IMG/VR virus record: IMGVR_UViG_3300017788_000002
Coordinates: 1-42,601 of that record
Length of the DNA stretch: 42,601 bases
Reading direction: 5' to 3' (one strand)
Source of the DNA: a virus
This document shows positions 1 to 41,745 of the stretch, piece after piece (within the stretch, counting starts at the first letter, position 1; every line of letters begins with the position of its first letter). The notes below the pieces were generated by a model, which was not told the DNA's origin, searched no databases, and was given only the letters and a program-made list of their open reading frames with translations. Made by a program: the position numbers and the translations under genes.

Positions 1-123
1 CCGCCTGACCCGACAGCGCACCTGTCCCCCCGCAGGGGGGGGCGGGATGCGACCGCCGTGTGGCATCGCACCTGACCCCCTACCGGAGACCTGACCCATG
101 CAAGTTGAAACCCTGTCCGTGAC
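1..123. repeat. Terminal direct repeat (circular overlap), left copy
   Basis: These 123 bases are repeated exactly at 42479-42601. The repeat includes the end of one gene's stop region, a leader cassette and the first codons of the gene at 98, so it interrupts an otherwise continuous rightward cluster. That is what an assembler leaves when it closes a circular or circularly permuted molecule. A true short terminal repeat cannot be excluded from sequence alone. Confidence 0.95.
26..100 (+). promoter_or_regulatory. Leader cassette upstream of the gene at 98
   Basis: A hairpin of six C and six G around a GCA loop (26-40) is followed by a small inverted repeat GCC GTGT GGC. Then come the conserved CACCTGACCCCC box, the ribosome-binding core TACCGGAGA and CCTGACCC before ATG 98. 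GGAG lies nine bases from the start codon. The same arrangement recurs ahead of many genes in this genome. Confidence 0.75.
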
Positions 124-520
124 CCGCCTGACCGTCACCCTCCCCATCCGCACCAATCTGTCGCAGGGACGCATCCGCTTCCTGCTGACGGTGGAGCGCG
201 TCATCGACCTCACACATCGGAGTACAGCGTCCGCGCCAAGGGTGACCTACCGCCTGTCGTTCCGCACCGAACACGCGACCGAGGCGCTGCAAACGCACTC
301 CGCATGCGACCATCTCGGTTGGCCAACCGATGTGTTCAGCCTGTCCGGGCGGGCGTACGACCTGCTGTCCACCCACGGCGCGGATGCCGAGCGGGACGCC
401 ATCCGCATGGTGCTGGGGCACCTCCAGCAGGACGCGGTGGAGGGCGCGTTCCCGGTCCAGACCCGCCGCATCCTGCTCGCCTTGTGGGACGGCATCGATA
501 CCTCGTCTGCAACCGCCTGA
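98..520 (+). CDS. Hypothetical early protein, 140 aa
   Basis: I do not recognise this protein. It has no signal peptide or membrane segment. The N-terminal half alternates hydrophobic and polar residues as in beta strands, and the C-terminal half looks helical around the segment ADAERDAIRMVLGHLQQDA. The ATG at 98 sits directly behind a leader cassette with CCGGAGA, which fixes the start. It is third in the rightward early cluster, after the genes at 41934 and 42181 across the circular junction. Small, leader-driven early genes of this kind usually encode accessory or host-modifying proteins, but nothing in the sequence shows a specific role. Confidence 0.7.
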   Translation: MQVETLSVTRLTVTLPIRTNLSQGRIRFLLTVERVIDLTHRSTASAPRVTYRLSFRTEHATEALQTHSACDHLGWPTDVFSLSGRAYDLLSTHGADAERDAIRMVLGHLQQDAVEGAFPVQTRRILLALWDGIDTSSATA

Positions 521-536
521 CCCGACCGCGCACCGC

Positions 537-607
537 GCACCCCAACCGGGGTGCCGGATGCGACAGCCGTGTGGCCTAGCACCTGACCCCTACCGGAGAC
601 TGACATG
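537..607 (+). promoter_or_regulatory. Leader cassette upstream of the gene at 605
   Basis: A hairpin with arms GCACCCC and GGGGTGC around AACC (537-554) is followed by GCC GTGT GGC, the box CACCTGACCCC, TACCGGAGA and CTGAC before ATG 605. GGAG is six bases from the ATG. From about 574 through codon 7 the sequence is almost identical to 3408-3458, so this leader was duplicated together with the start of its gene. Confidence 0.75.
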
Positions 608-1105
608 TACGACTACACACTCATGCGAATCACGACCGCCAACATTGCCTTCCGCCTCGACGCCCTCAACAACGACCGGGCCACGAAAGGATGCGTGTAC
701 GATGCCCGGCGCACGGGACGCCTGTGGGTGATCACCATGACCCCAGAGGGCGCGACCATGGCGAGGACGGTGGCCGACTGCCTGACGAGCCGCGAGTGCT
801 TCGCCATGCTGTACGGCCTGCTGCGCGGTCGCCAGCACCAGCACGACGATCGCCTGCGCACGGTGTTCGGCCCCTGCGCAGCGGGGCCGTTGACGCCCGC
901 CCAACCGGAGCGCGTCTGCTGCGACCATTGCGCGGTCGGCCTGACTACACAGACGGCGCACTTCGTGGAATGCCTGTCCCGCGACTGCGCCAGCGCGAAC
1001 GCGGGCGAGTCCGGCACCCTCTGCGCGACCTGCTTTGAGCGCGACTCCCTGCCCGCAGCCGACTGCTGCCCCATCACGGGCGACGAGTACGGGATGCCGT
1101 CCTGA
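605..1105 (+). CDS. Cysteine-rich putative zinc-binding protein, 166 aa
   Basis: The C-terminal 65 residues hold a cysteine cluster: C105, C106, H108, C109, then C123 and C128, a CxxC at 140-143, and C154/C155. Two CxxC pairs with further cysteines between them suggest one or two zinc sites of the RING or treble-clef kind. The N-terminal about 100 residues are unrelated to any family I recognise. The first eleven residues (MYDYTLMRITT) closely match the 35-residue peptide encoded at 3438, and the leader is shared too. A role in binding nucleic acid or host protein is possible but only inferred. Confidence 0.75.
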   Translation: MYDYTLMRITTANIAFRLDALNNDRATKGCVYDARRTGRLWVITMTPEGATMARTVADCLTSRECFAMLYGLLRGRQHQHDDRLRTVFGPCAAGPLTPAQPERVCCDHCAVGLTTQTAHFVECLSRDCASANAGESGTLCATCFERDSLPAADCCPITGDEYGMPS

Positions 1106-1120
1106 CGCTGCCCTGCCCTC

Positions 1121-1195
1121 GCCTCCGGCCCGCGCCGGAGGCTTGGGCTGGTCACCGTGACCAGCACCTAACCCCTTACCGGAGACCTGACCATG
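1121..1195 (+). promoter_or_regulatory. Leader cassette upstream of the gene at 1193
   Basis: Hairpin one has 9-base arms GCCTCCGGC and GCCGGAGGC around CCGC (1121-1142). Hairpin two, CTGGTCAC C GTGACCAG (1148-1164), is nearly a perfect palindrome. They are followed by CACCTAACCCC, TTACCGGAGA and CCTGACC before ATG 1193. The layout matches the cassette at 3367-3440 element for element, although the stem sequences differ. Confidence 0.8.
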
Positions 1196-1429
1196 ATCGT
1201 GAACATCCCCGCCCGTCTTCTGACGCCCGTCCTGCCCGCCCTGCTTCGTGCCGTCGAGGACGCCGAGCGGGCCGCAACAGACCGCGACCTACGCCAGCGC
1301 GACCGCGACCACGCGCAGCAGGACGCGAACGCCCTCAACGAACTGGACACCCTGCTGCGGGCTGCGCTTGATGCCCAGCCCTATTCCGTGGCCGAACTGG
1401 CCGTCCGCGAATCCCCGATTGTCGCCTGA
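1193..1429 (+). CDS. Hypothetical early protein, 78 aa, helical
   Basis: An unrecognised small protein. Residues about 12-60 are strongly charged and read as a long amphipathic helix or coiled coil rich in D, E, R and A (DAERAATDRDLRQRDRDHAQ). The start codon follows a leader cassette, with GGAG eight bases upstream. It has no cysteines or membrane segment. Its place in the run of leader-driven early genes is all that can be said about its role. Confidence 0.7.
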   Translation: MIVNIPARLLTPVLPALLRAVEDAERAATDRDLRQRDRDHAQQDANALNELDTLLRAALDAQPYSVAELAVRESPIVA

Positions 1430-1430
1430 C

Positions 1431-1460
1431 CGCACCCCTTACCGGAGATACCTGACCATG
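1431..1460 (+). promoter_or_regulatory. Short leader (no hairpin) upstream of the gene at 1458
   Basis: It carries only the downstream half of the cassette: CACCCCTTACCGGAGA, then TACCTGACC and ATG. There is no hairpin between the stop at 1429 and the ribosome-binding core, unlike the neighbouring cassettes. GGAG is ten bases from the ATG. Confidence 0.65.
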
Positions 1461-2003
1461 AAGACCGTGAAGCACTACCGTCCGATCCCGCGCCCGGAGA
1501 ACGACCGCACCGCAGGCGTGGCGCACGACCTGTTGACCGAATCCTTGACCGCGCTGGCTGGCCTTGCCGACCAGCCGCGCAAGGACGCCGCTCGCCGCGA
1601 GCAGGCGATGCGGGAGCGCGAGCGGGCGGTGGGCCCGCTGACCGTCCTGCACCTCGCCGGAGCCATCACGACGGGCCAGTTCACGCTGACCCTGTGCCAC
1701 ATCGATGCGCTCATGCTGGTGGCGATCGGGGACTACCGCGCTCCCGCTCCCCGTCAGAAGCGTGTGGAGTACGTCGTGCTGCTCCTCGACGAGCATGGCG
1801 ACTCGCACAATTCGACGTTTCACGACACGTTGAAAGACGCCCGTGCCGACGCCCGGCGGTACGTCGGTGAAGAGGAGGGCGATGGTACTGTCATCGTCGG
1901 CACGGTCATTGAGCGCGTCCGTCTCGACGATCCCCTCGACCGCACGACCATTGAGACGCACGGCCAAGTCACGCCGGGATGGATCGACGCCCAGCACCCG
2001 TGA
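1458..2003 (+). CDS. Hypothetical early protein, 181 aa
   Basis: I do not recognise this protein. The start at 1458 is chosen because it follows the genome's standard leader; the open frame extends further upstream but would overlap the gene ending at 1429. Residues 1-70 are helical and charged. The C-terminal half (from VEYVVLLLDEHGD onward) alternates strand-like segments with a DARADARRYV helix, compatible with a small alpha/beta domain. A strong hairpin starts only a few bases after its stop, suggesting that this gene ends the first rightward transcription unit. Confidence 0.7.
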   Translation: MKTVKHYRPIPRPENDRTAGVAHDLLTESLTALAGLADQPRKDAARREQAMRERERAVGPLTVLHLAGAITTGQFTLTLCHIDALMLVAIGDYRAPAPRQKRVEYVVLLLDEHGDSHNSTFHDTLKDARADARRYVGEEEGDGTVIVGTVIERVRLDDPLDRTTIETHGQVTPGWIDAQHP

Positions 2004-2005
2004 GC

Positions 2006-2042
2006 GGCGAGCAGGGGGGGCGCTTACGCCCCCCCTCTCGCC
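2006..2042 (+). terminator. Strong hairpin after the gene ending at 2003
   Basis: Perfect arms AGGGGGGGCG and CGCCCCCCCT (2013-2022 and 2027-2036) close on a CTTA loop. They are extended by GGCGAG and CTCGCC outside, with one bulged C. There is no U-run after it, so it may act as an attenuator or RNA-stabilising end rather than a classical intrinsic terminator. It separates two early transcription units, because a promoter follows at 2248. Confidence 0.6.
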
Positions 2043-2244
2043 TTCGGCGGAATGCTCCTTGCACCAACGGTTGGCCTGCCGGGGGGCGTGGTTCGCACCC
2101 TTCTGCCCCGGCCCGTGTGGGACTACGCGATGACCCACATCGCCGCTCCCGAATTCTACTGCCCCTGCCCGAACTTCCGAACACCCTGTCGCAAGTCACG
2201 CGCCCGCCGCCACTTACGACAATCTCGCAAACTTACTGGATTGT

Positions 2245-2278
2245 TGGTTGCCTGTCTGTCGATAGTCGATATACTGAT
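2245..2278 (+). promoter_or_regulatory. Candidate early rightward promoter
   Basis: TTGCCT at 2248-2253 and TATACT at 2270-2275 are 16 bases apart, a fair sigma70-like pair. Between them GTCGATA occurs twice in tandem (about 2258-2271). The stretch GTTGGTTGC, CTGT, GTCGATA, TATxCTG is shared with the candidate leftward promoter near 8260-8290, which supports a common promoter/operator design. The start of transcription would lie about 50 bases upstream of ATG 2336. Confidence 0.6.
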
Positions 2279-2300
2279 GATCGCTCGGGTCGCGTGACCC

Positions 2301-2338
2301 GGGCACCTGACACCCCTGACCGGAGATACCTGACCATG
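2301..2338 (+). promoter_or_regulatory. Leader upstream of the DUF932 gene
   Basis: CACCTGACACCCCTGACCGG leads into GGAGA, TACCTGACC and ATG 2336. The ribosome-binding core is the same as in the other leaders, with GGAG ten bases from the ATG. The CACCTGAC box is present but its second half is altered. Confidence 0.65.
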
Positions 2339-3352
2339 GCACACGAACTGAAGCAGAATGACGGCCTCGTCCTCGCCCGCAACGCCGCTTGGCACGGGCT
2401 CGGCACCGTCGTGGAGTCCGCCCCCAACCCCTTCGCCGCCCTCCGCCTCGCCCGGCTGGAATGGACCGTCGAGGAGTCCGCCAACCTGACGGGGATCTTC
2501 AACCCCGGCGAGCAGGCGGAGTACCGCGTCTCGACCGACACCGCCAAGGTGCTCGTCCGCTCCGACGATCACAGCGTCCTCGGCGTGGTCGGCCCGGACT
2601 ACACCCCGGTGCAGAATCAGACGCTGGCCGAACTGGCCTACGCCCTGCGCGACGCCTCGTCGGAGCAAGGGGTGCGCATCGAATCCGCCGGATCGATCCG
2701 TGGCGGCAAGCGCGTGTGGTTCCTGATTCAGGCACCCAGCATTGAGATCGGGGCGAAGGGCGATGTAACGAACCCCTACCTCATGCTCACCAACGGGCAC
2801 GACGGGGGCGAGTCCCTCAAGGCGTTCGGCACCAACGTCCGCGTCGTGTGCGCCAACACCTACCGCGCTGCGATGGGGCAGGCCCGCGATGTGATCTCGT
2901 TCCGCCACACCAGCGGCATCAACGAGCGTGTGGACAGCCTGAAGTCCACGATCAACACGTGGTTCGCCTCCATCGCGAAGGGCCGCGAGTTCGCCTCGGC
3001 GCTCGCCGCCCGCCCGATGACCCGCACACAGGTGCAAGACCTGTGGGTCGAGGTGATCCAGCGCCTCGACGGCGAGATCCCCACCAAGCCCAAGAACGGT
3101 TGGGAAGAGCGCAGCCGGGAGCAGGCCATCGCGGGCCTCGCGCACATGGCGCAGGTGTTCGACCGCGAGTCGCAGCAGTTCGGCGCGACGGCGTGGGTCG
3201 CGGCCAACGCCGCCACCAACTGGGTCCAGCACGTGCGTTCGGAGTACAGCGTCCGCGCCAAGGACGCCAGCGTCCGCCGTTTCGCCAACTGGGGCGGCAC
3301 GGTGGCCGATGACACGGCGGAGGTGTGGAAGGCCGTCGCCACCCTCGCCTGA
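2336..3352 (+). CDS. DUF932 / phage-plasmid-like protein (TIGR03299 type), 338 aa
   Basis: The N-terminus (AAWHGLG near residue 20) and the central block NGHDGGESLKAFGTNVRVVCANT with following RHTSG match the DUF932 family, which is widespread on phages and plasmids. The biochemical role of the family is unproven. The length of 338 residues is typical. The start at 2336 is set by the leader; the frame is open further upstream through non-coding sequence. It follows its own candidate promoter at 2248 and heads the second rightward early unit. It is the largest protein of the early region, which fits an abundant early product. I am confident of the family and make no claim about function. Confidence 0.85.
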   Translation: MAHELKQNDGLVLARNAAWHGLGTVVESAPNPFAALRLARLEWTVEESANLTGIFNPGEQAEYRVSTDTAKVLVRSDDHSVLGVVGPDYTPVQNQTLAELAYALRDASSEQGVRIESAGSIRGGKRVWFLIQAPSIEIGAKGDVTNPYLMLTNGHDGGESLKAFGTNVRVVCANTYRAAMGQARDVISFRHTSGINERVDSLKSTINTWFASIAKGREFASALAARPMTRTQVQDLWVEVIQRLDGEIPTKPKNGWEERSREQAIAGLAHMAQVFDRESQQFGATAWVAANAATNWVQHVRSEYSVRAKDASVRRFANWGGTVADDTAEVWKAVATLA

Positions 3353-3366
3353 CCTGACCTGCCCTC

Positions 3367-3440
3367 GCCCCCCGGCCACCGCCGGGGGGCTTGGGCTCGC
3401 CACGTTGGCTAGCACCTGACCCCTACCGGAGACTGACATG
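3367..3440 (+). promoter_or_regulatory. Leader cassette upstream of the 35-codon gene
   Basis: A hairpin with 10-base arms GCCCCCCGGC and GCCGGGGGGC around CACC (3367-3390) is followed by TTGGGCT, a small inverted repeat GCCA CGT TGGC, CACCTGACCCC, TACCGGAGA and CTGAC before ATG 3438. It parallels the cassette at 1121-1195, including the flanking CTGCCCTCGCC and TTGGGCT, with both stems changed on both sides. Confidence 0.8.
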
Positions 3441-3545
3441 TACGACTGCACACTCATCCGCCTGACCACCGACACCGACCACACCATCAGCGCCAGCATC
3501 ACCGTCGAGAACGTGGCCTGCGCCGGGAAGGGGGTGGCCAAGTGA
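3438..3545 (+). CDS. Small peptide, 35 aa, partial paralogue of the protein at 605
   Basis: The reading frame starts MYDCTLIRLTT and ends VACAGKGVAK. Its first eleven residues match those of the 166-residue protein at 605 except for three substitutions, and the leader upstream is nearly identical. The stop TGA overlaps the GTG start at 3542, so translation of the next gene is probably coupled to this one. It may be a decayed duplicate of the 605 gene kept as a translational lead-in, or a functional micropeptide. Confidence 0.6.
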   Translation: MYDCTLIRLTTDTDHTISASITVENVACAGKGVAK

Positions 3546-4770: not shown

Positions 4771-4800
4771 ACCCCCCGTCCTGTTCGCAGGGCGGGGGGT
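4771..4800. terminator. Convergent-operon terminator hairpin
   Basis: The arms ACCCCCCGTCCTG and CAGGGCGGGGGGT pair over 13 positions with one G-U and a TTCG loop. It lies between the rightward gene ending at 4755 and the leftward gene ending at 4804. The TTATTCATTTC that follows on the + strand is moderately T-rich. It probably stops both early transcripts. Confidence 0.85.
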
Positions 4801-6279: not shown

Positions 6280-6617
6280 GCCGCCCCCACCGGAAACAGG
6301 AACTCGGAGTCCGCGCACTTCCATACCCGGGCGGACCTGCCGGAGCGCGTTGGGCGGTAGCCGCTGGCGACGATCAATCCCTTGTTCATCAGGTTGTTCA
6401 CCGATGCGCTGCATGTTTGATGCGTCAGGCCCAGCGCCTGCTCCAGTTCGTCGCACGTGCTCGGGCACAGCCTGATCGCCTCCAGCACCTTGTGGTTGAT
6501 GGTTGATAGGCGCGGCTGCACCGCCGACCATGCCGCGTCCTGCGTGTCCCAACGGGTGTCCTGCTTCGGCGTGCGCCGGGGAGGCAACCCGTCAGAGGCG
6601 AAATTAGTCCTGCTCAT
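6276..6617 (-). CDS. Winged-helix DNA-binding protein, 113 aa
   Basis: Residues 36-100 form a MarR-like winged helix: helix one LSTINHKVLEAIRL, helix two STCDELEQALG, recognition helix HQTCSASVNNLMNKG, then a wing with GLIVASGYRPTRSGRSARVW. The first 35 residues are disordered-looking and basic. It sits directly after the ERF gene and overlaps it by 14 bases. It could regulate the early promoters, or load recombination or replication proteins at a DNA site. Nothing in the sequence decides between these. Confidence 0.78.
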   Translation of the reverse strand: MSRTNFASDGLPPRRTPKQDTRWDTQDAAWSAVQPRLSTINHKVLEAIRLCPSTCDELEQALGLTHQTCSASVNNLMNKGLIVASGYRPTRSGRSARVWKCADSEFLFPVGAA

Positions 6618-7395
6618 CGAACATGTCCTCCCCCGCAGCCACCGCCTCCGGCGGCTTCATGCGAATCTGCGTCACGCGGGGCGGCGCGTCGGCCTTCTTC
6701 GACGCCTCCAGCACGACCCACACGGTCTGCCCCTGCGCAGCCTTTGCGACGCCGTGCAACTGCTCGTCCCACACAAAGTAGTTCCTGCCGTCCGAGTCCT
6801 TCAACTTCACATAGGGCGTCTGATTCTTCCCAGCGACGCCCTCGTCGGCGTACTTCACCGTGATCGCCACCCAATCTCCGAGAGGCGCAGCGGATTCCGC
6901 TGGTGCTGCCTTGGCTGGCCGGGCGGCGGGCTTGGGTGCAGGCGCGTCGCCGCCCCGTGCTTCCGCCGGACGGAACGGCGCGCGGGCAGGCGCGGAGCGC
7001 GTGTTTCGGTCACCCTCCCCGTCGTCGTCCTCGTCACCGACGATGCCGACGATCGCGGCCAGCGCGTAGCGGCGCAGGTACGTGATGCACGATCCCATCT
7101 GCTGGACGGTGGCGTTGTTCGGCAGCGGGAACATCGCGATGTCCTCGACGGATTGTCCCGATGCGTGCATGAGCGAGGTCGTGACGGTCACCATGCCGTT
7201 GGCCATGCTGACGGTCTGCACGGGCGCGATCCCGTGCTTCGCGAGCGGGACACGAATTGCGTTGAGGATGCTTCCGAGCGTCGCGTAGCGGTTCTTGAAG
7301 TGCGGGTTGACGCGGTCGAGTTCCGCGTTGCGGATCTCAAGGTTGGCCTTGGCCAAGGCTGCGGCCAGTTCTCCAATGTTCTCTGTCCGGTTCAT
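6604..7395 (-). CDS. erf: ERF-family single-strand annealing protein, 263 aa
   Basis: Residues 1-125 match the ERF family: NIGELAAALAKANLEI, FKNRYATLGSILNAIRVPLAKHGIA and the conserved block VQQMGSCITYLRRYALAAIVGI followed by acidic residues. A low-complexity A/P/R linker (about 128-170) joins it to a C-terminal strand-rich segment (VAITVKYADEGVAGKNQTPY) that could be an OB-like domain. The acidic end (GEDMFDEQD) recalls the tail of single-strand-binding proteins. ERF proteins anneal complementary single strands in phage recombination, here with the RecE-like nuclease encoded upstream. The start lies behind a short leader with CGGAGACTGACC. Confidence 0.9.
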   Translation of the reverse strand: MNRTENIGELAAALAKANLEIRNAELDRVNPHFKNRYATLGSILNAIRVPLAKHGIAPVQTVSMANGMVTVTTSLMHASGQSVEDIAMFPLPNNATVQQMGSCITYLRRYALAAIVGIVGDEDDDGEGDRNTRSAPARAPFRPAEARGGDAPAPKPAARPAKAAPAESAAPLGDWVAITVKYADEGVAGKNQTPYVKLKDSDGRNYFVWDEQLHGVAKAAQGQTVWVVLEASKKADAPPRVTQIRMKPPEAVAAGEDMFDEQD

Positions 7396-7414
7396 GGTCA
7401 GTCTCCGATGGGGG
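7395..7414 (-). promoter_or_regulatory. Short leader upstream of the ERF gene
   Basis: On the minus strand the start at 7395 is preceded by ATCGGAGACTGACC, the same ribosome-binding core as in the rightward leaders. It overlaps the end of the RecE-like gene and carries no hairpin. Confidence 0.6.
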
Positions 7415-8216
7415 CGAGCAGGTCAGTCGTTGCCCACGCAGGCATCCGAATTTCCGTCACGGTGTCAGGCCAGCCCTTGCCGGGCTCATCCATGTACTTG
7501 CGGTACAGGTCGATCAGGTCAGGCAGGCGGGCGGTAGCGAGGTCGAGGTGGTCAGGGTTGAGCGCAGCGCACAGGCAGGCGTGCGGCGGGTTCTTCTCGA
7601 CAACGATGAGGATGACGCTCGACACTTCCTTCCCGGCCCGGCGCAGCATCTCGCGATAGAACGCGAACTGCGTCCAGTACCCGAAGTTGTGCGCAGCCCG
7701 TGCGAATTCCTGTGGACTGGCCAGACCGCCGTGCGTCTTGATATCAATGATCGTGCCGTGCTCCTCAATCCAGCCGTCAATGCGAGCCTTGCAGGGGACA
7801 CCATCCCACTCTCCGACCAGCGTCATCTCCGTGCATCCATTGCACGCAGTCAGCAACTGCCGTGCAGTCGCGCTCGACATCACGCCGCCACGCATCTCCT
7901 CGACGAGGTTCGATTCGTCCTTGGTCAGGACGGTGCGGCCATCAGCAAGCGTAAGAAACTTCTCCCATTCTTCCTTACCGACCTTAGTCCGGCGGTCGAT
8001 GTCCGGCGCGGTAACGAAGTCCAGTTCGTACTTGGCTGGGGTCAGCAGCAGGCTGTGCAAGGCTCGTCCAACGCGGAATGCAGGCGAGTCCGACTGGTTC
8101 TCGCGCTCGGCCAGCAAATGCAGTGGTGTCGCACGGTCAAGGGTCTTGAGCGCACTCGCGCTCATGCGGTTGAGGCTGTGGTATTCAGCCTCCGGCATGT
8201 TCATCACGATCTTCAT
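7398..8216 (-). CDS. RecE/exonuclease VIII-like PD-(D/E)XK nuclease, 272 aa
   Basis: The core ARIDGWIEEHGTIIDIKT (D147, then D158 and K160) and YWTQFAFY with Q183 and Y187 match the PD-(D/E)XK exonucleases of phage recombination systems. GRALHSLLL at 50-58 is the usual N-terminal motif with its histidine. The family resects double-strand ends to give single strands for the annealing partner, here the ERF protein immediately downstream. ATG 8216 is set by a CCGGAGACCTGAC leader and keeps the typical MPEAEYH start. It is the first gene of the leftward early operon, 37 bases or so after a candidate promoter. Confidence 0.88.
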   Translation of the reverse strand: MKIVMNMPEAEYHSLNRMSASALKTLDRATPLHLLAERENQSDSPAFRVGRALHSLLLTPAKYELDFVTAPDIDRRTKVGKEEWEKFLTLADGRTVLTKDESNLVEEMRGGVMSSATARQLLTACNGCTEMTLVGEWDGVPCKARIDGWIEEHGTIIDIKTHGGLASPQEFARAAHNFGYWTQFAFYREMLRRAGKEVSSVILIVVEKNPPHACLCAALNPDHLDLATARLPDLIDLYRKYMDEPGKGWPDTVTEIRMPAWATTDLLAPIGD

Positions 8217-8232
8217 GTCAGGTCTCCGGTTT
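8214..8232 (-). promoter_or_regulatory. Leader upstream of the RecE-like gene
   Basis: On the minus strand AAACCGGAGACCTGAC precedes ATG 8216, the same sequence as the core of the rightward leaders. It shows that the element is used in both early operons and both orientations. No hairpin or CACCTGACCCC box is attached. Confidence 0.7.
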
Positions 8233-8888: not shown

Positions 8889-11800
8889 CTAGGGAATTCG
8901 GAACTGACCCTGCGCCTTTCGCTTTGCGTCGTTGAGAATTCGTTCGCGAATCCTGTCCGGCGCAAACCGATCTCGCAACCGTTCCACCTGATCGCGCACC
9001 TTCTGTTCCGGGCTTGGCTTGGCTTCCGGAATTTGGGTTTCGACGAATCGATACAACTGGTACAGCGGCACGCCACGCAACTGGAGCAGCGCCAGCGTTG
9101 CCTTGGTTGCGTTCAGCGCCGCAGCGTTGTCGTCCTGCATGGCCCGCGACGCCTGCTCAATCGGTCGAGCCGCCAACGCCTGCCCCATCGCACGCCGATT
9201 GACCGCTGACTGGATCGTGGATGACATGGCGAGACCGACGTAGCCGAACGTGGAGCCGATGAGTTCCGCGCCGACCTGCGTCGGGATGTTCTTCACCGCC
9301 TCCTTGAACGCCTTGTCCTCTTCTTCATCGGGCTCGTCGGCTCCACCGAGCAGCGCCGCGATGGTCTTCGCGAGGTACAGAACGGTGGCGGTGCTGGCCG
9401 CGCCGATGATTGCGCCGCTCGTTGTGTTCCCCGTAATCGCCACGGTCGTTCCGATTCGGCGCTGCCCCGTCAGCCACGCCCGTCGAATCTGGTTGCGTGC
9501 CTTCAACGGGTCGCTGCTGAACGGGAACACCAGTCGCCACGTCGCGCCGGAACCACGGGTGCGGTTGACGGCGGCGAACGCCGTCTCGTCGAACTCGTCG
9601 CTTGCGTTCTGCGTCATGCGGAAATCCCTTTCCGCACGATTGATGGCCTCGCGCAACGCAGGTTCGCCCGACATGCCTTCGTCCCGCACCTGCCTCAATC
9701 GCCCCTGCACGGCCACCAGCATGATGGTCTCATCCATCACGCGCAGCATGTCCACCAACGCCATCAGGGTCATGTTGGCATTGTCGGTCGCGTCGCCAAG
9801 CGCATTCAATGCGTCGGTGATGTTCTTCGCCGCCGCCGAATGTCCGGCGGCAGCAATGGATCTCGCGAATGCACGTGCCGCCGTCATCACCGTGACGCGG
9901 TCCCCGGCAGACATCGTTCCGCTGATGATGCCGCGCATCTGCATCTGGTGGCGGCGCGTAAAGTACCCGCTGAACGAATGAATCTCCGCCACCCGTGCAG
10001 CCCACCCGCTCGGAGACTGCAACGCCAGCGTGGCGGACGCGACGCCCGCTGCCCAGTATTCGCCGGGCAACTCGCTGGCCAACCGGATCGTCCCGCCGAC
10101 CAGCACCTTTGCCGCCGTGCGCGGAGACAGCGACAGCACCGCACCCGTCACGTTGTTGGTGAGCCTGTCGATCGCATTGGTCGAACTGCGAGCCGTGGCC
10201 CCAACCCCGTTGGAGAACATCGACAGCAGCGCCTGCGCGGTGTCCTTGCCCATCTGCACGTCGATGGCTTCGACCACTCGCGGATCCGTGAGCACCGTCG
10301 ATGCATCCCGGTACGGCTGCGCCATGTGAATCATGTCGAGCGACACCTGCACGTGCCGCTGCCACGTCTGAAGTGCATCGCGATAGATCAACGGCATGCG
10401 TCCACCCTCGCGGGCGTTTGCGAATCCAACGCTCGTCAGTGCGCTGCGGACCAGCGACCCATGCGCCGACAGCACGGACTTGTTCTCGCCTTGGAACTCC
10501 TCGGTGTTGCGGACGCGAGGCCAGTAGTTCGGGACCACTGGCGGCTGGTCCCCCTCCACGAGGAACACCGCTTCCATCACGCGATCGCGGATCTGCGTTT
10601 CCAACACATCCTTCATCGCCTGAATGAGATTGGTCTGGCCGGGCGTGAGCGCCGACCGCAACGCACGGATCTCCCCGTCGGTGGGGTAGATCGTGAGCGT
10701 GGTCTCCGCTCCGGCAAACTGCAACCCCTGACGCGCCGCGTCGGGATCCGCCGGAGGGACGAACAACTCCAGCGTCTCGTCATCCATTGCCGCGATCGAC
10801 ATGGCAACGCCGACCGGAATTCGGTGCACACTTCCGCCAAGGGTGACCTCGACGAGTTCCGCAATCTGCGTTCCGTACAGCCCGTTGCGCAGCGCGTAAT
10901 CCTCAATGCCTCCGTACCCAGCACCGAGCAACGGAGCCGACAGCGCAGACATTATCCGCGCATGCTCCAACGCCGCCAGTCCCTTGGCATCCTGTGCAGC
11001 CACCAACATCTCGTTGATGACCCCGTCCATGGTTCCCTCGACCTCCAGCATCAAGGTGTAGATGTCCGAATTGGCAAGGCTGATACGCTTGGCCAAGGAC
11101 TGGATCGGTGGCTGGTCTGCCCGATCTCGCATGGCCAGCCTGCGCCGCCCCTGCATCGCCAGCAGAATGCGCTCCTTGAGGTTGTTGTACCGGGCAACGC
11201 GAGCAGCCTGCGCAGACTTGTAAGACTGCCTGTCTGCCTCGTACAGCAGCAGCGCCTGCTCCGCACGGTTGGCCGCGTCCACGACCTGCGCGTAGATGCG
11301 CACCGCGTTGACGACACCGACGGCAAACGTCCGTCCGCTGCCGTCCTTCATCCCCTCAACCTTGGCGTAGATCCGTCGTCGATTGGAGTTGCGCAGCAAC
11401 GCATCGGCTTCTCGCAGCAAGTCGTCTATCTGTTGCCGAACGGCATACCGCATCCCGCGCTGGTTCATCTTCTTCCGCAACGCGGAAATCAGTTGCAACT
11501 GCCGCCGCACCTCCTCGTTGATCGCCAGTTTGGTAGCCTCGACCGCCACGCGGTTTGCTTGGCCGATCGTCTTTGCCTTCGCAATCCGCACGGCAAGCGG
11601 ACCACGCAGGCGAGCGGGGAGCATCTGCGCCGCATCCGTGGCGATCCTTCGCACCGCCGCATCCATCTCGCGGATGCGCATGACCTTCATATCCATCAGG
11701 TCACGCAGCGATTGCAACTGCCGCTGCAACGTGTCCTCGCGCCTCTGCATCTTGCGCAGAATCTGCCTTCTCCCCTCCATCATTCCCTGCACAAGACCAG

Positions 11801-14800
11801 ACCGCAGACCCATCTGGTGCGCGAAATCGATGGCTCGCTTGGAGGCTCTCGCATCCGTCTTGATGCGCTGGCGGGCCGCCTGCAATTCCTTGGTGGCCTG
11901 CTGCAAACGCAACTCCACCACCTCCAGCCGCTCGCGGTACGGACGGTTGGCGCGACGCTCGGCCTGCATGCCAGCAACCTGCCCGGCGACGAGACCCTCG
12001 TTGCGACCGATGGCGTATGCCCAGTTTGCCACCCGATCGGTCTTGTCCTCGGCCTCCGCCAACGCCTCCAACGCGGCCTTGGTGGAGGTGCGCTGGGTTC
12101 GCAAATCATCCTTCAGGCGGGCGACCCGAGCCTTCGCTTCCTCTACCCGATCCGTCATGCGCTCGACAATCTCCTCGGCCTGCGCCTTGTCAGACGCGCG
12201 AAGTTCAATGTTCCGCTGAAGCCGGGCCTTCAGCCGGGCCAATTGCCCTGTGCGCTGCTCCGCCAAGAGCGAACTTGCCGCAATGCGGCGCTCCAACAAG
12301 CGAACGTCGCGGGCGGCGTTGGCCCGCTGCGCTGCCGTGACGTTCTGCACGTCGCGCATCTGGCGCTTGAGATCGTCCACCTGCGCTTGAAGCGAGGCAA
12401 TCTCCTCGGCGTCCGCGTCAGGGTCGCGGGCAAAGGCAATCTCTGGCCTGCTAGCGCCGAGCGATTCGCGTGGAGCGCGAGACATCGTCTCCGATACGTC
12501 GAGTTCGCCGACCTCTCCAAACCTGCTGCCCTGAACGAATCCGAAACGGCCATAGAACTCGACTAGCCTGTTGGCAACATCAGAGCCCGGCTGCCCGGCA
12601 GGTGCAAGGAACAGCGGCACGTTCTGCTGGTCGGCGGCATCGACCAGAGACTGCATTACCTGCGATCCAACACCTTGACCACGGGTTCCCTGCGGAACCT
12701 CGATGTTGCCGATCATTACCTCGCCATCCCAATCGGCAAGTTCGAGGCGGACATCTTTCGGAACCGAAACGGCGGCACGAAGCATCTCTGCCGGGCCACC
12801 CGGGATGTTCCGAACCTCTTCGTCAAATGCGGAGACCGGGCGCAAGTCGCGGGCGAAGGAAGTCGCTGGCCCACTAGTCGGAGGCACGCTTGTTGTGGCC
12901 GGGAGCATGGGAGCAATTTCTGGCTCACGCTCCAGAAGTTCGTCGAGGCGGGTCATTGCTCCCGAGAAGACCGATCCATCTGCATGGTTAAGTCTTCCGG
13001 GATACAACCCAACCAAGGTACGATACGTTGGAGTTTTGTTCTCAACGGCTTTTGCCAAAGCCTGTCGTGCCTGCTCGTACACATCGGGGTCGGTAGCCCA
13101 ATGCAGCGGCGTGACGGGAATCAAGTCCAGTATTGCTTGTGGCGACCTCTGTTGCAAGAAGGCTAGGTTGATGCTAATGGACGTTGGAATTGGAAATCCA
13201 TCAATTGCCCGATCGAGGTTGGCAGCAACAAACTGCACCAATCGCTCTGTGTCTGCGTCACTGACAGTGGCCATATCCAGTAGCACAGCAATCGAACCAA
13301 ACTCGGATCGCTTATAACCAGCCAGCGCCTCCATGGTCTCACCCAAATTGCGGCGCACTGGTTCCGGAACTGTGCGATTCTCTTCGTTTACCAGTTGCTG
13401 AAGTGTCCGGACATATCGCAACAGCGTGATCGCGACTTCACGCGGATCTGGCCTGTCGATGACCCGCGAATTGTGCTGCCACATTGTCCGAATGTCGGAC
13501 AGGAAATAGGCTTGCTCGTCAGCCACCGGGTCATATGGTTTGGGCTGGCCTTGCGCCCGAAACCTTCCAGCGCCCCCGAGATCCACCCACATCAACTCGT
13601 CAGTGTCAGGGTTTACGAGCGCGTTGTCCATGGCGAGCCCGATCATGTCCCAGTTCCGGGCAAGGACATGCGCAACAAAATCCCGTTGGATCTGCTGGTA
13701 CACAGGTGTCACTTCAAACAAGGAAGTGCGGGACGTTCGATCCACGTATTGGCCAAGCGTGATGTATCCGTCCGCAAACTTGGTCACCAAGGTTGGAAGC
13801 ACAAGTGTGGACGTTGGCTCCTCTGGGACAACATCCATGTCCGCCAGAGGCACGTTGACGCCAAGCGCACGCAAGGTGCGCAGATGCTGGAACTCATTGA
13901 TGGCATGCGCAGGACTTGCCCCACGCTTCAGCACCCATGTTCCGCCGTTCGGATCCCGCATCTTGCGTGCGCCCGTGCTTCCTCCAAGATTCTCGACGAA
14001 GCCAAGGATGGAAGCAGGGGGAACTACTCCGGGGGTTTCTTGCCACAACGACATGTCCATGTCGTGCAGCGTCTGGCCTGTCGCGGGGCTAATGAGGTTC
14101 TTGCGGCTGCTGACGACAATCTCGTCGTGATCAAAATCGTATTCCGACACATTCTCAAACACGACCACGTCATATCCAGCGCGAATTGCAGCGCGACTAA
14201 TTGCATCAGTCGAAGCCAGAATTCCGTCCACCTGCAATTCTTCGGCAATCGCCACCTCGTCTACCGTGTCCAACCCGCCTTGCAGCGCGATCGCAACGTC
14301 TATGGGAGTGTCCTCGGGCAGGATGATGCGGTCCCACGCTTGTCCTGCGCACTTGATCGTCAGCGGTCGTTCCGCCACGACATAGAACGAATACTGATAA
14401 TTGCCAAACTGGCCAAGATTCGTCCACTTGTTCGACAACGACAACGCTCGGTAATACGTCTCTGCCTGCCCACGAACTTTGTATGGCTCAAACGGCTTGT
14501 CGTTGCTGTTGTGGAACAGCACTTGCGGGTCGTCGGGTGCGCCACCAATAAACTGCAATTCACCGCGTGCAACCTTGGCAAAAATCTCCGGGTCGATTGG
14601 CCTGTTGAACGAAAGATCCGCGCCAGTCGCACGGGCCCACCGTCCGAGACCGCGAATGGCCTCGACGGTCGCAGCCTGTTCACGCTCAATCGCCTCGTCC
14701 CGGGCCATCGACTCCGTGTCGTTGTCGGCAAGTACCCCAGCCTCCGCCGCCTCGGTCACCACGTCGCCGCTGACGCTCGACGTAACCGCCTCCGCAATCA

Positions 14801-17800
14801 TGCGTGCGCCCGTCTCTGAATCCAAATTGACGTTCATCGCATCGCGCATGGCCTTCTGGTAGTCCTGCCCAGCAGGATCCGGGCCCGCGCCGAACCGAGC
14901 GTACAACTCCTTCTCGACATACCACAGTGCGGCCTGCGCGTCCGCCATTTCGTACGACAGCCCGGTTTCCTGCTTGACCAACGCAATCGCCTTGGTCATC
15001 ACGGATCGCATCAACGACCGGGCGTACATCGATTCAGGCGCAGCAGCGTTGGCCTTGGCGGCCTTGGCGTACCGAACCAGCGCCGCCTCCGCCGTGGTCT
15101 TCGGACGCAACTTTCCGTTGGCCAGACGATTGGCGGGATCCTTGACGAACTGCTTGTCGAACTCATACGCCGCACGTTCCAGTGCTTCGGGATCCGCAAG
15201 CGCGTTGCTCGGCACGATCGACAGAATGTTCTGCGCGTCGGCGTAGCCGGGAGCCGTTTCGCCCTGCTCGACAATCGCACGGGCCCGCGCCAGTTCGGTC
15301 GCAATGTCCTGAATTGCACTGCGCACACCCACCTCGTCCGGTCGGCGCAACCCGCCAAGGATTCGCACGAACGTCCGGGTAAACCACACATCCGCAGTAA
15401 GCGTGTCAAACTTCTTGTGCAGGTTGTTGTAGAACGAACCAATCTTGGGGCCAAGCACCGACGACATGTACACGTCGTCGTCCTTGGCGTCGTCGATCTG
15501 GCCGATCGCCTCTGCCATGGTCGTGGCAGCGCCATCCACCTGCATCGCTTGCTCGCGCAACGCCGCATTGTGCGTGGCCGTCTTGGCCTTCTGCAACATG
15601 AACTGCTCCACTTCGGCCCAACTTCCGAAGTGCTGATGCAGCAGATTCAACTTCTCCAAATTCTTGATCATCGCGGACGCATGCCGCGCATCGAACGACG
15701 CGGGAATGACAACCGCACCACGACCGTTCTTGACCCATGCCTCGTACAGCACTCGCGTGAGGATGGCGTTCTGGGAAACCTTCTCACCCTGCGAAGTAAT
15801 CGCGAGGAACATCGCGAACACCCGGCGGTCATCGGATTGCGGATCTGCCAGCGCCTTGTACTTCCGCGCTGACTCGGACCACATTTGATCCACGACCCGC
15901 CCGTACCACTCCAGTGCCGACGAACTGCCGACCTTAGTCGCCGCGTACTTCAGGTCGTCCGCAATCGCACGAACCATGATCTGCTGGATGCCATCGGGCA
16001 TCGTGTTCTTCGCGTCGTACTCGGTGAGCCATCCGACGATGGATTGACTGAACGAATCCAGCAGCCCCTGCAATTCGCCAACGGTGTACTTGCGCTGCCC
16101 CGCCAGTCGATACGACAGGATGCCGCGATCCGCCAGAATGTCTCCGAACGTCTGGAGTTTGGTATCGGCCAATGCCTGCTCTGCATCCTTCACGGCCTGC
16201 TTGGCATCCAGCAGCAACTGCATCTCCGGATCATCGGTCATCCATTCGCGCAATTGCTTGTCGATCTCGCGCAGGCGGGCGGACACGACGGCGATGCGTG
16301 GCTTGTACTGGTTGGGGTCGGCACCGACGGCGGATGCCGCCACGGCAAATTCAGACAGATCCTGCTTGCGACTCTTGGCCTGTTGCGCTTCCGATGCGAG
16401 CGCCACCAGAGCACGCTGCTCTGCCGACAGATGATCCGCCTGCGACGCCAAGGACGCCAACTCCATGGCACGGCCCAGCCGCGCTGCTCGCAGCAGATTC
16501 TGCGGATCCTTGGTCTTCTTCAGCCGGGCCCGGGTCTTGGAAATCCGGTCCTCAATTTTCTCGACCATCTTCTCGGCTGCCGTGACAGCCTTCATGGCAG
16601 AGGCAATGGCGTCGGTCGCGGCAGCCTTCTCTTGCGCCAACTTCTCCGGCGCGACCGTCACTGCCGTGGGAAGCCATTGCGACGCCGACAACAGTCGCCC
16701 CTTCTGTTCGGGCGACATGGCGTCCAGTTCCGACTTCAGTGCCAGCGTCAGTTTTACGAGCGAGATGCGTCGAGAACTGCCGATGAAGATGTCAGGATCT
16801 GGTTGCGGACTTGCGCTATTCCCTTGATTGTTGCCAGCACCGTCGCTCGGTCGAGGTTCTGCCACACTTTGGCTGGGTCTTCCGTCTGCCGAGACTGCCA
16901 CACTAGAGACAGCATCGCCTCCGCTTCGTCCTGCGGCAACGCTTTCCAGTCGGCGGGGGTTAGCGGTGAAGCCTGCAAGGCCCGCGTTACGAAGTCGCTT
17001 GCGTTCGGCAGTGTCGAGGTTGAGTTTGGCGAACCAGACGCCGGGGTAGTTGGTGATGCGTCCACTTGAGTCAGTCTCCGGAACCCAGCCTTCGGCCTTC
17101 CAATACTTCTCCAGCGTTGAGATGTACTCGTCCAGAGTCATCCCGTCTGGCGGTGTCAGGTACGCGGGGTTCCATGCGCTGTACCCCTCCGGCATCTGGG
17201 ATTCGTCCTCGACGAATCCGAACTGGCGGTAGGCCGTGGGCAACTTGCCGTTGCGAAGTGCCTGCCCGGGCCGACGCACATCGTAGCAATCGCACCGCAT
17301 CGGCACTTCTGGATATTGTGAAATTGCATGCAGCATGACCGGGGCAATCACGTCGGTGATGTCGCCCTCGTTGCTGTACAACCCCACCGCCTCGTCATAA
17401 CGCTGTCCGGTAGGGTTGCCGGATTCATCGACGTACTCCACCCGCTTGATCATGTACGCAACGTCAAGTCCGGGAATTCCGAACGGCTCAAACGACACGC
17501 GAATCCGCTGGCCGTCGGAGTCTTCGATGCGCGGGTTGGCGATCTGGTCGAGCGTGTACTGGGTGAGCGTCTGCGTCGCCTTGTTTCGGCGGTGGCCCGC
17601 CAAGTATTCCACGGGCGTGAGGGTGCGGAACGACAGCGTGGTCATAGCCGCCGCCGCCGACAGGAAGCGGCGAGACATCGCCAGCCGTTCCGCCTCCCGC
17701 ATCTTGGTCGTGCCGACCAGCGCCGACCGCAACCGCGAAAGTTGCACAACCTTCTCTAATTTTCCGACCTTGCGTGTCCGCGCCGCTGCCGCTCGCTTTT

Positions 17801-27348: not shown

Positions 27349-29679
27349 TTAGGTCAGGTTTGCGAGAACTGCGTTCGGCAGCCGATACGGCCAGTACTTG
27401 ACGCGACGGACGTTGGTCTGCGCCGATCGGAGTGGGTCGCAACCCACATGCAGTCGATTCACCGTGGGAATGGTGGCCGACGTATCCGTTGGTTGCGCGG
27501 TTCCGTTGTACGCAAACCCAATATCGTTCAACTTGTAGGCCAGCATCACATTTGTGCGAGTCGGAAAGGGCAGATTGCGCGTGACGTTCCACGATGCTTG
27601 GGGCGTTCCGTCTGTTACTACTGCCCCGACGCTGTCAATCAAATCGCTGTACAGCAACAGGCGATAGTTTTGGCTATTGTCATTGGCAGACAAGTACCGG
27701 GACATCCCACCTGTTCGACCACCCTCAAACAAGAACGTCCCCTCGGTCGGGTTGAACCACGACGAGAACGCCGCACCAGTCATCACGCACACGTCCTGAT
27801 TCCGGCTCGCGGGTCCTGCTCCCGTGGCAATGTACGACGATGGACGCGCTGTGCTATTGATAGACTCCATCTGGGCACCAAAGAACCGAGCGGCATTTCC
27901 TTGCGTCGTGGCGTGTTGCGTAAGGCTGTTGGATGGCAACAACCTAAACGATCCGTTCCCGGCGCTCATCGCAAGGAATGACGCCGACACTCTCCACCAG
28001 CCGTTGCCGACGTTGCGTGTTTCGACGGACCCCGTGCTGATTCCCGTTGGGTTCCCCGTAGTGACCAATTGCGCCTCCCCAGTGTTGAGATTGACGCTGA
28101 CGTAGAACCCGTCTGTCCCACCGGGGTTGATCCATCCCATCGCACCAAAATGCTGGGTGGAGTCCAAATCCTTTTTGAGATACACGGAAATCGTGTATCG
28201 GCCACTAGACACTACGGCGACGGACTGTTCGATGTACCGCGTTCCCGGCGTTGGGGTGTTGGTTGCCAACGTGAAGGCATTTCCCGTGCCCATGGGATCG
28301 GAAGAAAACGTGCCGTCATTCGTTACATCGACAAACGATGCGGTCCACGGGGACGTGGCAAATTCTTGAGACCGCAACAGCATGTTCGTGGTCCCGTCCT
28401 CCATCAACATTCCGAGCGGTTCGCGAGTTACGGGGTCAATCTCAAACCGCGGCTCATTCGCGTTGCCAATTGTCTGCATCTGCCCGTAGGTCAGAGCGGT
28501 TCCAGAGGTTTCGATGTAATCGCAAAGGTAGCCTTCGTTGCATTGGAAGCCCCACACCATCATGGTCTTGTTCAGTGTCGTAGCCGAGGACTGCCCCGAA
28601 AGTGGCGTTTGCAAACCAATTGACCTTACTGGAGCCGCGCTACTGGTGCCCGGTTTCCGGATATTTTCTACGGTCAACCAGACCCGATACCACCCATTGC
28701 CAACGGCAACGACTCCGTGGTCAAGACACCGCATCGTCCAGTTGGTGTTGGTTTGTGGTTGTTCTGTGATGGTCGCTTGGTACGTGGACAAATTGACCAC
28801 TAGGACGACATAAGTCCAAACGGGATTCTCTTGCCGACGGATATCCAGCCGAAATGCCGGGGTATCGATGTTCTTGATGTAGATGGATGTCGTCCAAATC
28901 ACACTTCGGTTGAAGGTGACATCGCGTACGAAATACGCCGACTCGGAAGGGCTCGTTCGTCGAATCGTTTTTGCGGTATTGGAACCATCTGGGGCGATGC
29001 CGCTGTTGGGAACAACGGTGCCGTTACCATATATAGTTGGATCGACATTACTGGTGGGGTTGAGATTCTGCGCGTATGGACGCGCCAGATACGTGGCGTT
29101 CGTGCTGCCGCGAGTGAACGTCAGGCCGGACGGCAACTGCCCCGACAAGAAATTCATCTGCAAGGTCGAGTTGTCGAACGTTTCCAACGTCCAGTACTGG
29201 TCCGGCACGAACACGTCCACCAGATCATTGGTTAGCACGTCCTTGCGCTGCATCAGAATGGCCGCCGGGGTGAAGTCCCCTAGGTCCGAAGCGTCGTCTG
29301 CGAACGCTTCCTCCGTGTCCGACGCCCGCAGCCGCGTGCCCGGGAGCAAGTCATGTCCCGCCAGCGAGGTCACCTTGGCCTTGACAAGGCCACCAAACTG
29401 AACTTCCACTTCTCCGCCGGGCGCACCACTACGACCCAGCAGCGACGTGACCACTCCGATGTACCCATTGGTCTTGGCCACCTTGCCGTCTGCTTGGCGG
29501 ACGCAATTGAACACGTACAGCGGGCTGCCGGACTGCTCGGGGTCTAGCACCGCGCCCGAGTGCGTAAACGACGTGTGCACCACCGAGCCGACCGACAACG
29601 GCGCTCCGCTGCGGTTAAACACCCGAAGCCGCATGCCGTGCGGCTGAAGACCAAGCGGGCCAGACATGGGCGAAATCAT
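27349..29679 (-). CDS. Modular fibre with decoration-type N-terminal domain, 776 aa
   Basis: Residues 1-170 are clearly homologous to the 168-aa protein at 32660: GPLGLQPHGMRLRVFNRSG pairs with GPYGIQPASMQTRCVNKSG, then VFNCVRQADGKVA, NGYIGVVTSL, VQFGG and FVPDQYW align in order. Two carbohydrate-binding-like modules follow (about 185-420 and 430-640), each with a SIYIKN or SVYLKK strand, an NGWYRV or NGWWRV block and an ending like YIETSG or SYIATG. The C-terminal 120 residues (GTFLFEGGR onward to LPNAVLANLT) are the concanavalin-like tip common in phage fibres. The likely role is host-surface binding. The N-terminal homology suggests attachment to the capsid, making this a head fibre. Confidence 0.82.
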   Translation of the reverse strand: MISPMSGPLGLQPHGMRLRVFNRSGAPLSVGSVVHTSFTHSGAVLDPEQSGSPLYVFNCVRQADGKVAKTNGYIGVVTSLLGRSGAPGGEVEVQFGGLVKAKVTSLAGHDLLPGTRLRASDTEEAFADDASDLGDFTPAAILMQRKDVLTNDLVDVFVPDQYWTLETFDNSTLQMNFLSGQLPSGLTFTRGSTNATYLARPYAQNLNPTSNVDPTIYGNGTVVPNSGIAPDGSNTAKTIRRTSPSESAYFVRDVTFNRSVIWTTSIYIKNIDTPAFRLDIRRQENPVWTYVVLVVNLSTYQATITEQPQTNTNWTMRCLDHGVVAVGNGWYRVWLTVENIRKPGTSSAAPVRSIGLQTPLSGQSSATTLNKTMMVWGFQCNEGYLCDYIETSGTALTYGQMQTIGNANEPRFEIDPVTREPLGMLMEDGTTNMLLRSQEFATSPWTASFVDVTNDGTFSSDPMGTGNAFTLATNTPTPGTRYIEQSVAVVSSGRYTISVYLKKDLDSTQHFGAMGWINPGGTDGFYVSVNLNTGEAQLVTTGNPTGISTGSVETRNVGNGWWRVSASFLAMSAGNGSFRLLPSNSLTQHATTQGNAARFFGAQMESINSTARPSSYIATGAGPASRNQDVCVMTGAAFSSWFNPTEGTFLFEGGRTGGMSRYLSANDNSQNYRLLLYSDLIDSVGAVVTDGTPQASWNVTRNLPFPTRTNVMLAYKLNDIGFAYNGTAQPTDTSATIPTVNRLHVGCDPLRSAQTNVRRVKYWPYRLPNAVLANLT

Positions 29680-30314
29680 TCGTCATCCTCCAAAGATGGC
29701 ATTCCCGGAACATCCGGAATCGGTCGCATGGGAAACGCCCGGACGACCCCGGGCACGGTCACATCGTCATACAGATCAATGTCTGCCGCGTATGCCTGTC
29801 GGATCAATTCCAACTGTTGCGCCGACGGCGTTGGCTTGGGGTGCGGCGTCGTGTTCCGCACTGGAAATCCATTCAGGCCAACGAAAGCCACGAACTGATC
29901 GATGTGATCAGGGAATCGGAACAGGTGCGTGTCACCCCAACCGAAATCGCCTTGAGGCCGGAAGTGGATGTTGCGCTGGATGGGCATCGCCCGGCGTCGA
30001 ATCTGGATGTCGGTGCCGTTGACCAACGATTCCACCGCCTCTGCCAAATCCAATTCCATGTAGGCCACGCCGGACAAAAACCGATCTACGGGCTCGCGGA
30101 CCAGCAAAACCACCGGGTGCGTCGGCTTTCGGGAGCCGGGGCACAACCCATGCCACTGCATCGTCTCCATGGTGACTCCTTCGGGATACCACCCATTGAC
30201 GATCTTTCCGTACAGGTCCGGATGAAACGTCTCCAGCACCGCGATTGAAATGCTGCTGCTTCCCACTTTGGGGTTGAGCGCAATCGAATAGTGGATGGCG
30301 TCGAAATACTTCAT
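29676..30314 (-). CDS. Sulfotransferase-family protein, 212 aa
   Basis: NPKVGSSS at 14-21 matches the phosphosulfate-binding loop of PAPS-dependent sulfotransferases. VREPVDRFLSG at 72-82 matches the 3'-phosphate motif with its arginine and serine. HFRPQ at 117-121 and the closing YAADIDLYDDV are features of the carbohydrate sulfotransferase branch. It is shorter than most family members, which exceed 250 residues. It overlaps both neighbours by ATGA junctions between the LRR protein and the fibre, so it is made with virion proteins. It could sulfate a host or virion glycan, or have lost activity. It has no signal peptide. Family assignment is good, substrate unknown. Confidence 0.78.
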   Translation of the reverse strand: MKYFDAIHYSIALNPKVGSSSISIAVLETFHPDLYGKIVNGWYPEGVTMETMQWHGLCPGSRKPTHPVVLLVREPVDRFLSGVAYMELDLAEAVESLVNGTDIQIRRRAMPIQRNIHFRPQGDFGWGDTHLFRFPDHIDQFVAFVGLNGFPVRNTTPHPKPTPSAQQLELIRQAYAADIDLYDDVTVPGVVRAFPMRPIPDVPGMPSLEDDE

Positions 30315-35909: not shown

Positions 35910-35910
35910 G

Positions 35911-41638: not shown

Positions 41639-41745
41639 CGTCCCCCCATTCTGCCACGTTCGCCCGCGCTTGTCGCTCGTAACCCCTGTTTCGATAGCCC
41701 TTTCCGACTTTCTGACAAATTTTCCGAATAATCCGTCCTCACCTC

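Follow-up and report, generated by a model that had tools for sequence, protein, structure and literature searches.

Phage early regions are rich in small unrelated genes that come and go. The window analysed here, the whole 42,601-nt stretch of IMG/VR record IMGVR_UViG_3300017788_000002, raises the question of why many such genes, in one phage and in its relatives, start behind nearly the same short leader. We favour the reading that this leader is a portable module for early-gene expression that may double as homology for gene exchange, and would put its probability at roughly 0.6. At the level of sequence, the reading is supported by the restriction of the leader to start codons, the unrelated genes behind it, covariation in its hairpin, the geometry of promoter and hairpin, junctions at ATG, and homogenisation within lineages. 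One short leader may then account for both the immediate expression of new genes and the site where they are spliced in, in a phage group without a cultured member.

The core and the genes behind it

The core of the leader can be written as GGAGA-N0-4-CTGAC. Counted on both strands of the circular genome, it is found 13 times, against 0.51 expected in Markov-1 genomes, and 11 of the 13 copies have an ATG 0-3 nt downstream (0.02 expected); the motif is tied to start codons, as the original prediction held, and is not equally common elsewhere. Its parts are also over-represented on their own (CCTGACC, 32 copies vs 6.9 expected; CCGGAGA, 22 vs 7.0). The mirrored control pattern has no match in the window or in 28 related records.

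All ten starts that had been named carry the core, eight of them rightward (41934, 42181, 98, 605, 1193, 1458, 2336 and 3438) and two leftward (8216 and 7395). An eleventh copy, before the leftward gene starting at 35909, had been missed; this gene is the sole exception among the late genes of the phage, which otherwise lack the core. The record looks circular, with bases 1-123 recurring at its end, and owing to this 123-nt terminal repeat a copy at 42577 is gene 98 a second time. The window consensus is CCGGAGA(TA)CCTGACC, but the exact string first described is looser at several starts: 42181 has CTGGAGA, 7395 has TCGGAGACTGACC, and 605 and 3438 carry GGAGACTGAC, without CCTGACC.

Relatives were collected from IMG/VR with a TerL scan (58 loci) and a DUF932 scan (13 loci). 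Many genes of the close relatives likewise stand behind a copy of the cassette. Across the phage group, the 95 genes behind cassette copies were translated and clustered by BLASTP at 1e-3, where remote homology could be missed, into 47 families; the leader is thus carried by unrelated genes. The 11 cassette genes of the window fall into 11 separate families, which rejects duplication of neighbouring genes as the origin of the motif and agrees with the earlier expectation that it would sit on non-homologous genes. The sole pair that shares first codons as well as leader is 605 and 3438.

Comparison of 80 nt upstream and 80 nt downstream of the core across phages yields many pairs in which the upstream part is 80-100% identical, the genes behind are unrelated, and identity stops at the ATG. 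The cleanest are position 32572 of relative G001 with 21973 of G002 (100% upstream identity), 22023 of G006 with 3116 of G027 (100%), and 33957 of G001 with 20114 of G002 (97%). In the last pair, G002 has a second core 187 nt past the first. Behind it stands the gene that adjoins the leader in G001, and the space between the two cores is taken by another gene, of 52 codons. As read from these alignments, the two phages differ by the gain or loss of one gene between copies of the 16-nt core GGAGACCCTGACCATG. One leader class is also found after unrelated upstream genes. Searched against all viral contigs, a 17-18 nt leader pattern matches 41 stretches, with more than one copy in two relatives only; the lone matches elsewhere are therefore taken as background.

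Hairpin, promoter and spacer

Most rightward leaders had been described as having an additional upstream box, and often a GC-rich hairpin. The box does recur, but at 42181 and 1458 its CCTGACC belongs to the stop codon of the gene before and its surroundings (GCC TGA CC), so the CACCTGACCCC box does not stand as an element of its own in every leader. A hairpin is clear at 41934, 605, 1193, 2336 and 3438, probable at 98, and absent at 1458 and 42181.

The rightward leaders all lie on the plus strand. That of the DUF932 gene 2336 (2248-2335) runs from a promoter, TTGCCT-16-TATACT (2248-2275), through the hairpin GCTCGGGTC-GCGT-GACCCGGGC (2283-2304), which begins 7 nt past the -10 box and shows compensatory changes, and CACCTGACACCCC to the core GGAGATACCTGACC. 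At 1193 (leader 1121-1192), the hairpins GCCTCCGGC-CCGC-GCCGGAGGC (1121-1142) and GCTGGTCA-CCG-TGACCAGC (1147-1165) precede CACCTAACCCC and the core GGAGACCTGACC. The leader of gene 605 (531-604) has the hairpin GCACCCC-AACC-GGGGTGC (537-554), a small hairpin GCC-GTGT-GGC (566-575), CACCTGACCCC and the core GGAGACTGAC; that of gene 98 (1-97, and again at the record end) has a GC-rich hairpin, the same small hairpin GCC-GTGT-GGC inside GCGA..TCGC, CACCTGACCCC and the core GGAGACCTGACCC. Before 41934 (41888-41933) stand the hairpin GCGGTTCA-TTG-TGACCCGC with one mismatch, CACCTGACCC and the core GGAGACCTGACCC. The leaders without a hairpin are those of 42181 (42154-42180: stop-codon CCTGACCCC, core GGAGACCTGACCC) and 1458 (1425-1457: stop-codon CCTGACC, CACCCCTTACC, core GGAGATACCTGACC).

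In the leader of ORF 3438 (3367-3437), the hairpins GCCCCCCGGC-CACC-GCCGGGGGGC (3367-3390) and GCTCGCCA-CGT-TGGCTAGC (3395-3413, one mismatch) are followed by CACCTGACCCC and the core GGAGACTGAC. Only a 35-codon ORF stands behind it (3438-3545), the stop of which overlaps the GTG of the next gene (3542). Because the same leader precedes a 138-codon gene in relatives, this ORF looks like a truncated gene now serving coupling.

A short, strong hairpin lies 5-28 nt ahead of the core in 27 of the 72 non-redundant leaders of the phage group; dinucleotide shuffles yield 4.8, and segments drawn at random from the genomes 8.9 (in the redundant set, 40 of 81 vs 4.3 in shuffles). Its arms vary from gene to gene inside one genome with the pairing retained (1193, 3438, 2336 and 41934; one mismatch each at 3438 and 41934). 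Six distinct orthologous DUF932 leaders were used for covariation: 98% of cells are paired, vs 24-46% in slid controls, both sides have changed in 4 of 9 pairs, and covariation scores 0.526, where shuffles reach 0.284. These compensatory changes support a base-paired structure.

Of 126 leaders, 32 have a predicted sigma-70-type promoter in the 120 nt upstream; among 2000 random segments the count is 16. In the 25 distinct promoter leaders with a hairpin, the hairpin most commonly lies 6 nt past the -10 box, a distance at which it would start at the predicted +1. Operon-internal leaders have instead a GC-rich hairpin soon past the preceding stop codon, without a T tract. Intrinsic terminators were considered as an identity for the cassette hairpins and rejected: the terminator scan found no T-tailed terminator at any cassette, and its one hit in the window (4771-4800) lies at the end of the rightward operon.

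The 14-nt linker before GGAG is 44% C, 26% A and 13% G, in genomes with 30% G, and is more open than random windows. Similarity of the spacer that follows GGAGA is higher between unrelated genes within a genome (0.742) than it is from lineage to lineage (0.590; 0 of 500 permutations), a comparison that covers the lineages found with one pattern. Other spacer versions are seen in other lineages: CTGCC (G003 and G004), AACCTGACC (G005, G006, G027 and G028), TACTGAC (G007 and G020) and GTACAGCC (G009). Leaders of the more distant lineages were located by lineage-specific patterns.

What the leader may do

A module assembled from these parts would begin with a sigma-70-type promoter or, inside operons, with a GC-rich hairpin just past the previous stop codon. 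In many copies there would follow a short hairpin with a 3-4 nt loop, at about the predicted +1 where a promoter is present, and then the C/A-rich, G-poor linker, GGAGA as Shine-Dalgarno sequence, a spacer of 6-10 nt (with CTGAC in the lineage of the window) and ATG. A hairpin at the 5' end impedes RppH and stabilises bla mRNA, and in E. coli it is an obstacle to 5'-end-dependent decay (PMC3997798); here too, a 5'-terminal hairpin would shield the mRNA from such decay, and the open linker with a strong Shine-Dalgarno sequence would favour efficient initiation for any gene behind the leader.

The near-identity of the leader before many unrelated genes also makes it a stretch of homology. The acting recombinase is perhaps that of the phage itself, judging from known families. 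A leftward block includes an Erf-like single-strand annealing protein (6604-7395, minus strand; Pfam ERF, PHROG Erf-like), which is the candidate for leader exchange, and a candidate partner, an exonuclease VIII (RecE)-like nuclease (7398-8216, minus strand; PHROG exonuclease VIII, E 4e-62). Rad52-like phage recombinases, Erf among them, exchange diverged DNA (PMC3945230). With such enzymes, genes could be gained, lost and exchanged exactly at the ATG and would arrive pre-wired for early expression. Both genes have cores of their own on the minus strand (CCGGAGACCTGAC at 8217-8229 before the nuclease gene, GGAGACTGACC at 7396-7406 before the Erf-like gene), and GGAGACTGAC (35910-35919, minus strand) is the core that precedes 35909, a leftward gene of the structural module.

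Several observations weigh against this reading. The fold energies at 1193 (z -3.0) and 3438 (z -3.6) are well under those of shuffles, but those at 2336, 98, 605 and 41934 are not significantly lower. A detectable promoter and a +1 hairpin occur together in the window only at 2336 (distance 7). The majority of the window leaders lie inside operons; there, RNA would have to be processed before a hairpin could be 5'-terminal. Finally, the leaders of 1458, 42181, 7395 and 35909 consist of the core only, so the hairpin is not essential.

A different account of the same leaders is that a dedicated trans-acting factor, a phage RNA-binding protein or small RNA, reads the hairpin and/or CTGAC and places the genes under joint translational control, as proposed for the start-associated sequences (SAS) of mycobacteriophages. 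Spacing alone does not explain why CTGAC is kept at a variable distance from GGAGA (0-4 nt) and from ATG (0-3 nt), and the concerted spacer change within lineages, such as CTGCC in G003 and G004, is what a change of factor would produce; leader exchange, however, accounts for the concerted change equally well. The arms differ among the leaders of one genome, leaving no fixed binding sequence in the stem, the loops vary as well (CCG, CGT, TTG, GCGT), and no candidate factor was identified. A sequence-specific regulator acting in trans is possible, but we think it unlikely.

We give slightly less weight still to a pure by-product of recombination, a ribosome-binding region copied again and again that has no function beyond an ordinary Shine-Dalgarno sequence. 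Unrelated genes of different phages preceded by leaders of 80-100% identity, and a spacer homogenised throughout a lineage, are what it would leave behind. It does not lead one to expect compensatory changes that maintain pairing, a hairpin at the predicted +1 in unrelated sequences, or the orderly alternation of GC-hairpin and promoter types. The original prediction, which took conservation well beyond a Shine-Dalgarno site to imply dedicated control, is right in part: selection is visible in the hairpin, through its compensatory changes, and in GGAGA, but much of the identity is accounted for by leaders that travel with genes or are exchanged against them, and by homogenisation of the spacer within lineages.

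That the inverted repeat acts in DNA, serving a DNA-binding regulator as operator or as part of a promoter, has been suggested for extended SAS (ESAS), and the short dyads do lie near promoters, which cluster K ESAS also contain (PMC11373665). We regard this as very improbable here: the half-sites differ among the dyads of one genome, unlike the operators of one protein, the dyads stand downstream of the -10 box, and many copies have no promoter. Hairpin promoters for a virion RNA polymerase, as in N4, were likewise rejected, the hairpins following the -10 box and the 3812-aa protein of the phage being only weakly acetyltransferase-like. The remaining idea, an ordinary ribosome-binding site shared by all host genes, has GGAGA as an ordinary Shine-Dalgarno sequence in its favour and next to no credibility otherwise, since the late genes of the same phage lack the core except at 35909 and the core with ATG has at most 5 copies per genome, usually 0-1, in 688 cellular genomes of three phyla (including genomes of the family that shares the boxA-like element described below: G118, G239 and G261), a near-absence on which a host habit was rejected as the source of the leader. 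One cellular genome has four regularly spaced copies of GGAGANCCTGACAATG within 1.7 kb (G661:C3:193707-195417), likely a tandem gene array.

The leader rule also has a practical use, in locating the true starts of genes and new accessory genes among related phages.

Genome setting and known systems

The rightward early operon runs from 41934 across the origin to about 4755, and the leftward genes include terminase, portal, head and tail. The 5' leader of the early operon (41732-41933) has a promoter-like site on the plus strand (TTGACA-17-CATCAT with TG before the -10, 41746-41774; a consensus match only), followed on the same strand by a boxA-like element, TCTTTGACAAGTGAA (41788-41802), and a hairpin, CCCGC-CGAAC-GCGGG (41817-41831). 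Both are conserved in relatives: three lineages have TCTTTGACAAGTGAA unchanged or one base off and a fourth also has it, and compensatory changes are seen in the hairpin.

BoxA is an antitermination element of stable RNA, with the parallel in E. coli. The 15-mer TCTTTGACAAGTGAA occurs in only 3 of 119 sampled planctomycete genomes, yet one of these belongs to a family in which 8 of 9 genomes have it. Because the copies fetched from that family, all but one (L169), stand upstream of or among 16S, 23S or tRNA genes, the element looks like the stable-RNA boxA of that family, adopted by the phage. Such an adoption hints at Nus-dependent antitermination along the early operon, and at a planctomycete as host. 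The host family is thereby indicated as a lead, not as proof; a TerL related to that of the phage, as a prophage relative would have, was not found in the 9 genomes of the family, in a search without a positive control. Combined with this borrowed boxA, the leaders of the phage group might form a lineage-specific address, its hairpin and CTGAC read by a protein or RNA of the phage, so that genes with its current version are expressed early and newly acquired genes must adopt that version, and would then be an early-expression system distinct from that of the host; we hold this to be improbable.

The record derives from an uncultured virus of bacteria, probably with a planctomycete host. No DNA nearly identical to the window was found among named phages, and the nearest TerL of an isolate has about 32% identity over 43% of the query, too distant for any isolate to name the host. 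No Rfam family was found in the window, and the only Pfam family among the genes behind the rightward leaders is that of the DUF932 gene at 2336. At the end of the late operon (8889-20327, minus strand) a single reading frame encodes the 3812-aa protein, which has no clear family and weak acetyltransferase-like matches around residues 2530-2620; a tRNA-Arg (ccg) predicted within it (18445-18531, minus strand) is possibly spurious. The tail-gene region encodes a sulfotransferase-like protein (29676-30314, minus strand; PHROG 3347, E 2.5e-6), and a perfect 25-nt repeat, TCGGAGTACAGCGTCCGCGCCAAGG, is shared by gene 98 (217-241) and the DUF932 gene (3239-3263).

Among known systems, the SAS and ESAS of cluster K mycobacteriophages (PMC3203893; ESAS promoters, PMC11373665) and those of Microbacterium cluster EF phages (PMC7302621) are similar in several ways, and the original prediction was apt in drawing the cluster K analogy. 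There, too, a short conserved sequence covers the Shine-Dalgarno site at 10-19 gene starts. The genes are mostly non-structural and come from different families; about half of the copies have an inverted repeat immediately upstream, and some a sigma-70-type promoter. The sequence is rare in the host genome, and its versions differ by subcluster. In the window, a conserved ribosome-binding sequence likewise lies at starts (11 of 13 cores), before 11 different families there and 47 in the group. The sequence is different, as had been noted: the 13-bp SAS consensus GGGATAGGAGCCC (GGGAAAGGACCCC in EF) is unrelated to GGAGACCTGACC and is not matched by the window leaders, nor is the 17-bp ESAS consensus repeat. 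That repeat is imperfect, has its own consensus and, according to its authors, is unsupported as RNA pairing, whereas the repeat here varies freely, keeps its pairing and lies in the transcribed region. The role of SAS and ESAS has been open since 2011; by contrast, the inverted repeat here is read as a base-paired structure, supported by compensatory changes and in promoter-bearing copies most often beginning at the predicted +1, and gene exchange exactly at the ATG is seen in this phage group.

Stabilising stem-loops at the 5' ends of mRNAs, as in ompA, papA and engineered bla leaders (reviewed in PMC3997798), have a hairpin at or very near the 5' end, then an unstructured stretch and a ribosome-binding site, an order that the leaders here may share. 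Where a promoter is predicted, the hairpins here are most often 6 nt past the -10 box at the predicted +1, a comparison that does not apply to operon-internal copies. The known cases are single genes, whereas the present module recurs through a phage genome and moves between genes.

The promoter early stem-loops (PeSLs) of T4-like phages (Arbiol 2010; Comeau 2014), as outlined in a later paper (PMC4503421), are repeated promoter/stem-loop cassettes between small early genes and are tied to the shuffling of these genes. Gene shuffling is matched here by ATG junctions in several phage pairs; as to the joining of promoter and stem-loop, a promoter is predicted at only 32 of 126 leaders. Going by that outline, the differences lie in the phage group and sequence, in a repeat that here extends through the ribosome-binding site to the start codon, in a hairpin with compensatory changes, and in the lack of terminator-type T tracts at the window leaders. 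The nearest published parallel is cluster K SAS/ESAS in anatomy and PeSLs in the role in exchange; the leader resembles both and seems to belong to neither.

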